Shown here: positions 1,723-11,168 of the stretch, in pieces
Position numbering within the stretch: position 1 is the stretch's first letter
Layout of the letters: every line of letters begins with the position of its first letter
Origin: Betaproteobacteria bacterium
Lineage (GTDB): Bacteria; Pseudomonadota; Gammaproteobacteria; Burkholderiales; Burkholderiaceae
DNA: 13,081 bases
Assembly: GCA_009921765.1 (NCBI GenBank)
Contig: RFXC01000120.1
Span: forward strand, 1 to 13,081
Direction: 5' to 3'
Made by a program: the position numbers and the translations under genes
Notes under the pieces: model-generated
What the model was told of the DNA's origin: nothing
What the model saw: only the letters and a program-made list of their open reading frames with translations
Databases searched by the model: none

Positions 1723-3267
1723 TCAGACACCCAACTGGGGGTTGACCCGCTCCACGTCGCTGTGCAGCTTGTTCAGCGCGTTGAGGTAGGCCTTGGCTGA
1801 TGCAACGATGATATCGGGGTCGGCCCCCACGCCGTTCACAATCCGTCCACCGCGCGAGAGCCTGACGGTGACCTCCCCCTGCGATTCGGTACCGGTGGTG
1901 ATCGCATTGACCGAATAGAGGAGGAGCTCCGCTCCGGAGTCCACCTGAGATTCAATGGCCTTCAGCGTCGCATCGACTGGACCATTGCCGTCGGCGCGGC
2001 TGCGCGCCTCGCGACCAGCCACCGACAGGGTGATCTCGGCATGCGGCCGCTCGCCGGTTTCCGAGCCCTGAGCAAGCGACACCAGCTTGTAGTGTTCGCT
2101 CTCGGGCGCGACCGATTCATCGGAGAACAGCGCCTGAATGTCCTCATCAAAAATATCGGACTTGCGGTCAGCCAGGTCCTTGAAACGCGAGAACGCGGCG
2201 TTCAGCTCGGTTTCGGAATCCACCGGAATGCCAAGCTCAAGCACGCGCTGCTTGAACGCATTGCGGCCAGAGAGCTTGCCCAGGACGATCCGGTTGGTGG
2301 CCCAGCCCACGTCTTCGGCCCGCATGATCTCGTAGGTGTCGCGGTGCTTGAGCACACCGTCCTGATGAATCCCCGAGGCGTGCGCAAACGCATTGGCCCC
2401 CACCACCGCCTTGTTGGGCTGCACCGGAAAACCGGTGATGCCCGAGACCAGTTTGGATGCCGGCACGATCTGGGATGCATCGATCCCGACATCAAGGCCG
2501 AAGTAATCGCGCCGGGTCTTGACCGCCATCACAATTTCTTCAAGCGATGTGTTGCCCGCACGCTCGCCCAACCCGTTCACCGTGCACTCGATCTGACGCG
2601 CGCCGCCAATGGTGACGCCAGCGAGCGAGTTGGCGACCGCCATGCCGAGGTCGTTGTGGCAGTGCACAGACCAGACCGCTTTGTCGGAGTTTGGAATGCG
2701 CTCGCGCAGGTTTCGAACCAGCTGACCGAAGAGCTCGGGCACCGAATAGCCCACCGTGTCGGCGATGTTGATGGTGGTGGCACCCTCACGGATCACGTCT
2801 TCAATCACCCGGCACAAAAAATCAGTATCCGAGCGACTGCCATCTTCCGGAGAAAACTCCACGTTGTCGGTGAACTTGCGCGCGAAGCGCACAGCAAGCC
2901 GCGCCTGTTCGTGCACCTGCTCGGGCGTCATACGGAGTTTCTTCTCCATATGCAGCGCAGAGGTGGCAATAAAGGTGTGAATGCGCGCGGATTTCGCACC
3001 TGCCAGGGCCTCTGCCGCCCGCGATATGTCTCGATCGTTGGCGCGAGAGAGCGAGCAGACGGTGGAGTCGCGTATGGTGTTGGCAATGGCCTTGACCGCT
3101 TCGAAATCGCCGTTGGAGGAGGCTGCAAATCCAGCCTCGATCACATCCACCCGAAGCTTCTCAAGCTGGCGGGCAATGCGCAGCTTTTCCTCTTTGGTCA
3201 TGGATGCGCCGGGGCTCTGCTCGCCATCGCGCAGGGTGGTATCGAAGATGATCAGTTTGTCGGCCAT
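1723..3267 (-). CDS. leuA: 2-isopropylmalate synthase
   Basis: Full-length LeuA (514 residues; the family is usually about 510-560). It condenses acetyl-CoA with 2-oxoisovalerate to 2-isopropylmalate, the committed step of leucine synthesis, in the cytosol. The N-terminal TIM-barrel has the signature [10 protein letters not shown] at residues 11-20, with R13, D14 and E16. The metal-binding HCHND is at 202-206 and NGLGERAGN at 231-239. KLSGRNAF (331-338) marks the linker region. From about residue 392 to the end is the LeuA allosteric/dimer domain, the site of leucine feedback in this family. The ATG at 3267 has AGGAG at 3276-3280, 8 bases upstream. A leader ORF ends 70 bases before the start, and a promoter lies ahead of that, so control by leucine at the leader is likely (inference). 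The aldolase gene follows after 59 bases. Homocitrate and citramalate synthases are relatives, but the length and C-terminal domain favour LeuA. Confidence 0.97.
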
Positions 3268-3284
3268 TTCGGATGCTCCTGGGT

Positions 3285-3355
3285 CTGCCCCCGCTGGTTT
3301 GGGAGGCCTGCACTTCAGATTGTGGGGGAAGGGGTGTTTAGCGCGCGGGGCGCAG
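3285..3355 (-). promoter_or_regulatory. Candidate leuA leader RNA pairing near the ribosome site
   Basis: On the minus strand, CTGCGCCCCGC (3345-3355), which overlaps leader codons 33-36, can pair with GCGGGGGCAG (3285-3294). All ten bases of the second arm pair with a single bulged G in the first. The second arm ends 4 bases before the leuA AGGAG (3276-3280). The loop would be about 50 bases. No U-run follows, so this is not a classic intrinsic terminator; any effect would more likely be on translation. A ribosome stalled at leader leucine codons 31-33 would cover the first arm and leave the leuA start region open. This is seen as base complementarity only; function is inferred. Confidence 0.4.
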
Positions 3356-3451
3356 TAGCAGCCGCACGCCGGGGAGGCGTAGCGCTGCCAGGCGACGGAC
3401 GCGGCGGGCGTGGTCGCGGGCGGACACGGCAGTGGAGTGTTCGCTGGGCAT
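3338..3451 (-). CDS. Probable leucine leader peptide upstream of leuA
   Basis: A 37-codon ORF from ATG at 3451 to TAA at 3338-3340, ending 70 bases before leuA on the same strand. Six of the thirteen residues 21-33 are leucine ([13 protein letters not shown]). Leucines 24 and 32 use CTA, a codon that is rare in such GC-rich genes; this matches the logic of leader peptides that sense charged leucyl-tRNA, such as enterobacterial leuL. The basic first half (RDHARRVRR) has no obvious role. No good ribosome binding site precedes the ATG, and the predicted -10 box ends only 7 bases upstream, so the ORF would be leaderless or nearly so. It may be translated from the very 5' end of the leuA transcript. 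The alternative is a chance ORF in GC-rich DNA; the leucine run, codon choice and position argue against that. Confidence 0.55.
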
Positions 3452-3458
3452 GCCCTGG

Positions 3459-3488
3459 ACTATACGGGCAACCCGGCGCCGGTTGCAA
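3459..3488 (-). promoter_or_regulatory. Predicted sigma70-type promoter of leuA
   Basis: Read on the minus strand, TTGCAA (3483-3488; 4 of 6 consensus) and TATAGT (3459-3464; 5 of 6) are separated by 18 bases. This is the best promoter-like element in the window. The -10 box ends 7 bases before the leader ATG, so the start of transcription should fall at or within a base or two of that ATG. Confidence 0.6.
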
Positions 3489-3640: not shown

Positions 3641-3964
3641 ATGAAGCTCGCAACCGCTCAGTGCTTTCAGACGAACTTCGAAGGGGCGATGGTCGAGCGA
3701 ATTCATCAGGCGCACAGCGATGGCACCGGCGCCGTGATCATCAACGCCGGCGCCTGGACGCACTACAGCTACGGCATTCGCGATGCACTCGCAATACTCA
3801 ACTGCCCGATCGTCGAGGTGCACATGTCCAACGTTCACGCGCGCGAGGAATTCCGCCATACCTCGGTGTTCTCGCCGATCGTGCGCGGCCAGATATGCGG
3901 CTTCGGCATCGACAGCTACCTGCTGGGGGTACGCGCAGCCGTGTCTGCGCTCAAGGCAGGTTAG
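3641..3964 (+). CDS. Type II 3-dehydroquinate dehydratase-like protein, N-terminally truncated
   Basis: A 107-residue protein matching the C-terminal two thirds of type II dehydroquinases (about 145 residues), which interconvert 3-dehydroquinate and 3-dehydroshikimate. Seen: FQTNFEG (9-15), [11 protein letters not shown] (33-43), the catalytic-histidine region [12 protein letters not shown] (58-69) followed by FRHTS (71-75), and GQICGFG (83-89). Missing: the family's N-terminal NGPNLNLLG segment and the lid carrying the catalytic Arg and Tyr. No upstream frame between 3420 and 3640 encodes them. The ATG at 3641 lacks a clear Shine-Dalgarno; an in-frame ATG at 3599 would add 14 unrelated-looking residues. 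The core motifs are intact, so the loss may be recent or the short form may have a non-catalytic role. The gene is 20 bases ahead of the enolase-superfamily gene and probably shares its transcript. It is either a truncated pseudogene or a short paralog; it is unlikely to be the cell's only AroQ. Confidence 0.75.
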
Positions 3965-10271: not shown

Positions 10272-10454
10272 CGGAATTTGTGCCGGGAAGTGTCGGAGAA
10301 GCCGAAAGTGTATTCGCTCGCGGACACGACCGCCTCGAAAGGCCCCTGCCAGCGGCACGGCTCGTGAGAACGCGTGCGGCGCCCGCCGGCCCAGGCTCAT
10401 CCGGTGAGCCTCGCGGGCCCGCATCATCGCCGATCGCCAATCCGGAGCCGCACC

Positions 10455-11168
10455 GTGCCCCCTTCCGCGCTCAGTCGCCCCCACTTGCGCCGCCTGCGTC
10501 AGATGTTCCGTTCCTCTGGCTGGCCCTGCCATGACCCCGTCGAGATCGATCTGCTGGGCGCAGGGCTGATCGAACGTCTGGTCTCACCCGAGCCCGGGCT
10601 GCGACCCGATACGATCCGCGTCACCGACGCAGGCGTTGCGGCGCTCGCGCTCGCCCAGACGCTGAACCGCCGGGCGCTCGGCGCGCACGAGGCACTGGTC
10701 CGACTCACCGCCCAGTGGCTGGTGGCGCAAGGCCGACTCGCCTGGACCGGGCTCTCGCTCCTGTCACCCGAAGCGCCGGGCGGCGGTTGGGGCCCCTGCC
10801 GCCCGGATGTCTTTTCACTTCGCATCTCCAGCTTCGAACACGCGCTTGAGCCCACCATCCACGAGATCAAGGTGAGTCGCGCCGATCTGCTGGGCGATCT
10901 GCGCCAACCGGGTAAACGCGGCGCCTACTTCGGGCTGGCGCAACGCGTCTGGTACGTGCTTGGCGAATCGGCCCAAGGCGAACCCATCGCTGATCCCGCA
11001 GAAATTCCGCCCGAGTGCGGGGTTCTAGTCGCCTGCGGCGATGCGCTGAATATCGCGCGGCCAGCCCCGGCGCGCGATGCCCGCCCCATCGCGTTGCCCA
11101 CCTGGCTTGCGCTTGCCCGGGCGCAGCCGCTCGACACCGAAGCCGCCAGCCCGCAGCACTGCCTTTGA
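10455..11168 (+). CDS. Protein with a PD-(D/E)XK nuclease-like motif, function unknown
   Basis: A 237-residue protein. The GTG at 10455 is chosen for GGAG 7 bases upstream; the longer frame from 10374 is Arg/Pro low-complexity. The first 80 residues are predicted helical with a region like a winged helix (FRSSGWPCHDPVEIDLL, then IRVTDAG at 54-60). The middle has RPDVFSL (116-122) and HEIKVSRADLLGDLR (136-150), so D118, E137 and K139 form a PD-(D/E)XK-type signature. The EIKVSRAD(L/F)LGD pattern recalls MmcB-type putative repair endonucleases of alphaproteobacteria, but the rest differs. A following GAYFGLAQRVWYVLG would be the next core strand. It is divergent from the molybdenum hydroxylase operon and 128 bases ahead of the TerC gene. 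A nuclease or DNA-repair role is inferred from motif only, with no catalytic proof. Confidence 0.8.
   Translation: MPPSALSRPHLRRLRQMFRSSGWPCHDPVEIDLLGAGLIERLVSPEPGLRPDTIRVTDAGVAALALAQTLNRRALGAHEALVRLTAQWLVAQGRLAWTGLSLLSPEAPGGGWGPCRPDVFSLRISSFEHALEPTIHEIKVSRADLLGDLRQPGKRGAYFGLAQRVWYVLGESAQGEPIADPAEIPPECGVLVACGDALNIARPAPARDARPIALPTWLALARAQPLDTEAASPQHCL

Follow-up and report, generated by a model that had tools for sequence, protein, structure and literature searches.

In enterobacteria (E. coli and S. Typhimurium), the leader peptide encoded by leuL, upstream of leuA, is rich in leucine and uses CUA as control codons; the leu leader of S. Typhimurium contains three of these, and a swap to CUG is described as reducing sensitivity (PMC1183508). 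In S. meliloti trpL, the source of the peptide peTrpL and the small RNA rnTrpL, the RNA is reported to begin at the ATG of the leader ORF, and rnTrpL to be made by transcription attenuation (PMC7298713). In the tnaC leader of E. coli and the mgtL leader of Salmonella, a region accessible to Rho lies at the end of the leader ORF or behind it, and stalling prevents the action of Rho: in tnaC, Rho is described as blocked by the stalled ribosome (PMC5021804), and in mgtL, proline starvation is described as masking the Rho region (PMC8429421). In the actinobacterial LEU element, as proposed in the source, a leucine run in an upstream ORF precedes leuA, a classical attenuator is absent, and the leucine codons pair with the ribosome-binding site (PMC1262725). 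Leaderless mRNAs have been reported in transcription start-site studies of B. cenocepacia and C. metallidurans, the main texts of which do not mention leuA.

The locus analyzed here lies in a window (the whole stretch of DNA that was analyzed) of 13,081 nucleotides. Like enterobacterial leuL, it has a leucine-rich leader ORF with CTA codons upstream of leuA, but its leader is predicted to be leaderless, and an intrinsic terminator, an antiterminator and an Rfam match are all absent in the window. It is akin to S. meliloti trpL in the predicted start of the RNA at the leader ATG, and differs from it in the amino acid and the operon concerned. The arrangement would also be that of tnaC and mgtL, except that the signal here would be leucine codons and that Rho dependence is inferred here from base composition only. 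The pairing proposed for the LEU element, with which the locus shares the leucine-rich upstream ORF, was not found here. The leaderless leader peptide of S. meliloti trpL, as described in the source (PMC7298713), is a precedent, and the leu leader here is a variant. The open-licence literature yielded neither a leaderless leu leader nor a Burkholderiales leuA attenuator, and an overlap with Vitreschak 2004 is possible. The main elements of the locus are the following.

3483..3488, minus strand: -35-like hexamer TTGCAA (promoter scan; the close relatives L084-L088 have TTGC at the equivalent position).
3459..3464, minus strand: -10-like hexamer TATAGT, 7 nt before the leader ATG (promoter scan; the -10 signal peaks at 6-7 nt across loci).
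3338..3451, minus strand: leader ORF of 37 codons plus stop, the A of its ATG (3451) being the predicted transcription start (homologous ORFs in L084-L088, L001, L002 and others).
3380..3382, minus strand: rare leucine codon CTA, codon 24 (sequence; CTA enrichment in leaders).
3353..3361, minus strand: leucine run CTG CTA CTG, codons 31-33 (sequence; middle codon compared over 35 leaders ending LRxAR).
3276..3280, minus strand: Shine-Dalgarno-like AGGAG of leuA (GGAG is invariant in an alignment of 25 sequences).
1723-3267, minus strand: leuA, 2-isopropylmalate synthase (the curated models TIGR00973 and NF002087 above cut-off; Pfam HMGL-like and LeuA_dimer).

The upstream neighbour of leuA is a type II dehydroquinase gene at 3641-3964 (+), and because this gene is divergent, leuA needs its own promoter here. 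Between 3200 and 3700, a promoter scan finds a single site, the pair TTGCAA-18-TATAGT with nine of 12 consensus matches (shuffle mean 0.0, sd 0.2), and terminator-like sites in the same interval number zero (shuffle mean 0.3). The leader ORF has leucine at positions 21, 24, 26, 31, 32 and 33, with CTA at codons 24 and 32; over the eight main ORFs of the window, CTA is rare (two of 296 leucine codons). An earlier note on this DNA had described the promoter-like pair, an ATG 7 bases past the -10 box, and a 37-codon ORF with six leucines in residues 21-33 and two rare CTA codons, all of which are present as described. An Rfam search of the window gave zero family matches, and the same search of 16 related loci gave merely three weak, unrelated matches below the gathering score, all in L160. 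Elsewhere in the window, a 264-aa ORF at 10374-11168 (+), flanked by molybdenum hydroxylase genes and a TerC gene, has no Pfam match at E 1e-5.

The leader was surveyed in 165 leuA loci including that of the window, a sample that leans to close relatives. A scan of genome contigs with LeuA contributed the 80 best of 581 confirmed loci. In a search of the family of the L002 genome (Lautropia sp. SCN 69-89), LeuA was matched in 41 of the 74 genomes with an E value of 1e-200 or lower; 30 of these 41 were taken as loci, two of them repeating L001 and L002, and ten further ones were cut out. An order-wide draw found LeuA in 168 of 200 genomes at E 1e-150; the upstream DNA of 60 was taken, and the leuA start was located by script in 47 of the 60. 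The two repeats were left out of the 165 loci, as were L083 and L121, where the leuA start was not found. A quick LeuA tree was built with 118 rows, the loci of the order-wide draw being too short for inclusion. The LeuA proteins of L084-L088 are 92-100% identical to that of the window and form one supported group with it.

When leaders were sought by leucine density only (an ATG ORF with at least four leucines in eight residues, promoters ignored), one was found in 73 of 118 loci, compared with six of the 118 reverse complements and two to six of 118 in ten shuffles. In front of 96 candidate ATGs, a -10 score above 5 bits occurs at 6 nt in 28% and at 7 nt in 44%, and at any other distance between 0 and 39 nt in at most 9%. 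A joint criterion (a -10-like hexamer, a spacing of 6-8 nt, then an ORF with at least three leucines in eight residues) identifies leaders in 105 of the 165 loci; none of the 165 reverse complements qualify, and 20 shuffles yield 1.35 of 165 on average, counts that are uncorrected for ancestry; nine other spacing windows tried under the same criterion gave 0-15 loci. Among the 105 leaders, the spacing is 7 nt in 61, 6 nt in 39 and 8 nt in five, and the start codon is ATG in 101 and GTG in four. By established promoter geometry, a spacing of 6-8 nt should place the first transcribed base at the A of the start codon. The leaderless start of the leader ORF that the earlier note had suggested is thus borne out by the -10 spacing over the loci, as far as promoter geometry predicts it, and the conservation of the leucine-rich ORF in related Burkholderiales that it had called for is found in these 105 loci. 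The N-terminal part of the leader peptide is highly variable among loci.

The 60 loci that fail the joint criterion are heterogeneous: nine have a LeuA-like coding end just upstream, two have less than 200 nt of upstream sequence, 13 pass a relaxed test only (at least two of them doubtful), and 36 show nothing. In the first of these sets (L008, L033, L035, L037, L042, L050, L064, L077 and L079), the DNA directly upstream of leuA resembles the C-terminus of another LeuA, by motif match only, which suggests tandem leuA copies, and the leader may lie before the first copy. By eye, the putative leader of L172 resembles the end of an upstream membrane-protein gene. A scan of the same type over 16 ilvB and 13 trpE loci of 14 genomes (trpE was matched in 12 of the 14) found no credible leaderless leader; L185, the sole listed ilvB row with a -10 box at the right spacing, was judged spurious. 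L203 and L204 have short Trp-rich ORFs upstream of trpE, with no -10 box at the leaderless spacing, and these ORFs may be ordinary trp leaders.

CTA accounts for 171 of the 690 leucine codons in the 105 leaders and for 13 of 3055 in leuA genes from the same set of loci (odds ratio 77), a comparison for which p values are not to be taken at face value because the sequences share ancestry; at least one CTA occurs in 87 of the 105 leaders. At the level of sequence, no other single finding argues as strongly as this enrichment for a leucine-sensing role of the ORF, and the comparison across leuA loci upholds the original proposal of a leucine-codon leader peptide with rare CTA control codons. Overall, a predicted leaderless start and rare-codon sensing are well supported, the leader is very probably a real leucine sensor, and the sensor is, as judged from these comparisons, widespread in the sampled Burkholderiales leuA loci.

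The leaders differ in what lies between them and leuA. In this region, 49 of the 105 leaders were called terminator type (T, a hairpin followed by a T-run) and 56 terminator-less (N), a split that rests on the T-run threshold and includes apparently wrong T calls, by eye, in L026, L049, L136 and L160. On the LeuA tree, the Comamonadaceae/Sphaerotilaceae group (n=56) consists of 40 T loci, 16 without a leader and no N locus, and the group of the window (n=31) of 26 N loci and five without a leader. Wherever a Burkholderia, Pandoraea or Oxalobacteraceae row has a leader, it is of type N; the T calls of two Paraburkholderia rows look mistaken. Terminators may extend beyond one clade because L140 and L159, which are not in the tree, have a clear hairpin and T-run, as perhaps has L123. 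No intrinsic terminator was seen in the window or, apart from a few exceptions, in the sampled lineages outside Comamonadaceae/Sphaerotilaceae. The hairpin of the window is the following.

3287..3307, minus strand: hairpin GCCTCCCAAACCAGCGGGGGC without a U-run, before the leuA ribosome-binding site (folding).

It is followed by agacccagg, and a U-run is absent. The Comamonadaceae/Sphaerotilaceae leuA loci (L004-L080, e.g. L021, L022 and L068) have a compact classical attenuator: the leader is leaderless, CTA-rich and often 15-20 codons long, its last codons contain an antiterminator arm, and the terminator is of the GGCCCG...CGGGCC type and has a T-run. These T-type leaders are like that of the window in gene, in the CTA-rich leucine leader and in being leaderless by spacing, and unlike it in the hairpin with a T-run and in the antiterminator arm within the last leader codons.

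Base composition around the leader stop suggests what could take the place of a terminator in the window.

3318..3377, minus strand: 60-nt C-rich, G-poor stretch straddling the leader stop, a candidate rut site (maximum of the leader region, 99.98th percentile of the 60-nt windows of the strand).

Rut sites are described as C-rich, G-poor and little structured (PMC5021804). Measured from the end of the leader stop, the richest 60 nt reach 40 nt upstream and 20 nt downstream, and their C-rich portion beyond the stop is 3319-3337 (-). For the window, the excess of C over G in the fixed 32 nt after the stop lies at the 98.3rd percentile. Across loci, the mean of C minus G in these 32 nt is 0.318 for N loci versus 0.168 for T loci, and the value is at or above the 95th percentile of its own locus in 37 of 39 N loci (out of 56) versus 17 of 42 T loci (out of 49), counting loci with enough flanking sequence. 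The C-rich tract ends in a recurring motif of the type CCCCACAAT(T) in 16 of the 56 N loci, e.g. 3319-3328 in the window, L133, L134 and L170.

These features would fit the following course of events. Transcription would start on the A of the leader ATG, so that no Shine-Dalgarno sequence would be needed: a ribosome could bind directly at the free 5' end of the RNA, by the leaderless initiation that the sequence suggests. The ribosome would then read the CTA-enriched leucine codons near the end of the ORF and, when charged tRNA-Leu is low, would stall there, as in the enterobacterial leu leader. In the presence of leucine, ribosomes would finish and leave, Rho would load on the C-rich stretch, and transcription would end before leuA; under leucine shortage, the stalled ribosome would sit on the C-rich stretch and keep Rho off. 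Two observations weigh against this output. A ribosome stalled at codon 32 (within codons 31-33) should cover merely a part of the C-rich stretch, and in E. coli, stalling upstream of a rut site is reported to be capable also of promoting Rho termination (PMC5021804), which is the opposite direction. The C-richness may, furthermore, merely keep the spacer unstructured. We consider it likely that the leader is a leucine-responsive leader-peptide attenuator of leuA, with a sensor and a putative Rho-dependent output; for the output itself, Rho-dependent attenuation via the C-rich stretch is the leading inference for the window, albeit a tentative one. Somewhat more speculative is the broader scenario of an attenuator, widespread in Burkholderiales, that dispenses with a leader Shine-Dalgarno sequence and an intrinsic terminator and relies instead on Rho, loading on a C-rich stretch covered by the stalled ribosome, with Comamonadaceae/Sphaerotilaceae having swapped the Rho exit for a terminator and kept the sensor.

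Translational attenuation, in which a stalled ribosome alters RNA pairing and so frees the leuA ribosome-binding site, was the mechanism favoured by the earlier note, and appears unlikely. The note had taken the missing U-run to point to translational control; the U-run is indeed absent in the window, but its absence fits Rho-dependent termination equally well. The 10-base complementarity that the note saw, of the ORF end to the sequence preceding the leuA ribosome-binding site, does exist, as about 10 pairs around one mismatch or bulge, but it equals that of shuffled sequence: the duplex energy is -23.7 versus a shuffled mean of -24.1 kcal/mol (p 0.50) in the window, and among 15 loci tried, only L088 reached p 0.03. 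Nor are the two arms kept together in an alignment of relatives, where the 3' partner varies and the ORF end is nearly constant. Stalling at codons 31-33 had been expected to free the leuA start, but over 29 loci the mean cost of opening the ribosome-binding site is 6.8 kcal/mol for free RNA, 6.6 with a stalled ribosome and 6.8 with a ribosome at the stop, with no consistent difference. The window taken alone shows a small shift in the expected direction (8.6 free, 7.1 stalled and 8.3 kcal/mol at the stop), which shrinks to 5.0 versus 5.4 when pairing is restricted to RNA 3' of the ribosome. A further point in favour of translational attenuation is that, in 25 of the 28 N loci of the window's family, 7-20 nt separate the end of the hairpin from leuA, and the base of the hairpin could pair with the ribosome-binding site in some loci. 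Elsewhere, however, the hairpin mostly lies farther away, and because its distance to leuA ranges from 30 to more than 60 nt in several of the other loci without a terminator, sequestration of the ribosome-binding site is not generally conserved. The pairing of the ORF end with the sequence ahead of the ribosome-binding site was rejected on the shuffle comparison and the opening costs, and translational control is left without positive support.

Improbable, too, is that the hairpin of the window is a degenerate or weak intrinsic terminator in classical transcription attenuation, a possibility raised by the Comamonadaceae/Sphaerotilaceae relatives with their terminator and antiterminator arm in the leader. 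In folding predictions with the 3' arm of the hairpin omitted, and with the stall position set at the first CTA (or at a leucine codon where CTA is absent), the leader of the T type holds the 5' arm of the terminator in 36 of 49 loci, compared with 28 of 49 for stalling at the last CTA and two of 49 with the ribosome at the stop. As modelled, this pattern is classical antiterminator logic. It is seen only with the 3' arm omitted, as in co-transcriptional folding; at equilibrium, with the whole hairpin, the T-type probability is 0.90 stalled versus 0.94 at the stop, and drops by more than 0.3 in just two of 49. Among 55 N loci, the 5' arm is held in 21 (first CTA), 14 (last CTA) and four (stop) with the 3' arm omitted. 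In the window, the hairpin 5' arm is hardly held under these settings (0.13, 0.08 when stalled and 0.11 at the stop; no switch), and at equilibrium the hairpin has a probability of 0.80 both stalled and at the stop, so that a leader-controlled switch was not found. The weak-terminator reading does gain from the eight of 55 N loci in which the hairpin drops by more than 0.3 at equilibrium when the ribosome is stalled, six of them from Burkholderia/Paraburkholderia. Against it, the hairpin of the window has no U-run, terminator-like sites are missing, and a competing pairing was not found there. In the six Burkholderia/Paraburkholderia loci (L009, L013, L015, L020, L048 and L072), a hairpin GCGTCGCC...GGTGGCGC, with the U-run absent, is predicted only with the ribosome at the stop (probability 0.0 stalled versus 0.73-0.96 at the stop), and this lineage may, in these models, have an arrangement of its own.

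The end of the leader ORF is itself conserved, at the level of DNA.

3338..3358, minus strand: 21-base core CTACTGCGCCCCGCGCGCTAA at the ORF end, conserved at the DNA level, with a possible small GCGC:GCGC hairpin (core search, alignment).

In the window's family, most leaders end in CTR CTG CGC nnn GCG CGC TRA. All 35 leaders that end in LRxAR have CTG CGC nnn GCG CGC at the four codons; for comparison, CGC makes up 1667 of 2780 arginine codons and GCG 1922 of 4969 alanine codons in the leuA genes. The middle codon of the leucine run in these 35 leaders is CTA in 22, CTG in 10 and CGA in three. The pattern CTRCTGCGCNNNGCGCGCTRA has 29 matches in 28 of the 74 family genomes (the other 46 of 74 are without an exact core), compared with one match for the reversed-pattern control; 28 of the 29 lie directly upstream of leuA, 25 of them at the LeuA hit from the family search. 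The core matches of L212, L216 and L221 are just upstream of leuA in a leader that begins 7 nt after a -10 box, and L220 is the exception. L221 (genome G038, of the window's group) is a second leuA-like gene with its own leaderless leucine leader and the same core end.

The core may form the GCGC:GCGC hairpin, as modelled, and its four pairs are possible in 47 of the 56 terminator-less leaders versus three of the 49 terminator leaders. Its folding energy is hardly better than that of synonymous recodings (mean z -0.73, and -0.25 in the terminator type), and RNAalifold, applied to 25 sequences, detected no pair change within it; the constraint on the core is shown at the sequence level only, because in the 47 leaders all four pairs are invariant and the energy is hardly better. 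RNAalifold also reported a five-pair helix in columns 11-27 of alignment A1, inside the leader ORF, with both-sided changes in all five pairs, which may be an alignment artefact of coding sequence.

The DNA-level conservation of the last codons, together with the peTrpL precedent as described for S. meliloti (PMC7298713), could be taken to mean that the leader peptide or a small leader RNA acts in trans and that the conserved ORF end reflects this action. Such a role is quite improbable, given that the N-terminal part of the peptide varies widely, that the core sits at leuA in nearly all of its matches, and that an enrichment of CTA is what codon sensing in cis predicts. Still less probable is a fold like that of the actinobacterial LEU element, in which the leucine codon run pairs with the leuA ribosome-binding site: a leucine-rich upstream ORF precedes leuA there too, according to the source (PMC1262725), but the longest exact complement between the ribosome-binding site and the leader is five bases in the window and four to six in six further loci. 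That the ORF stands beside a promoter by chance and has no function is contradicted, for the group, by its recurrence in 105 of 165 loci, by the CTA enrichment and by the position of the core at leuA, and is hardly credible.

If the leucine-responsive attenuator with its putative Rho-dependent output is real, many Burkholderiales would gain a leucine sensor at leuA that is unlisted in Rfam. These loci would also amount to a natural experiment with one sensor and two exits, an intrinsic terminator in one clade and none in that of the window and others. Leaderless initiation would become testable in a setting where timing counts, because the ribosome must exert its effect on RNA polymerase before more than one to two hundred bases have been transcribed.
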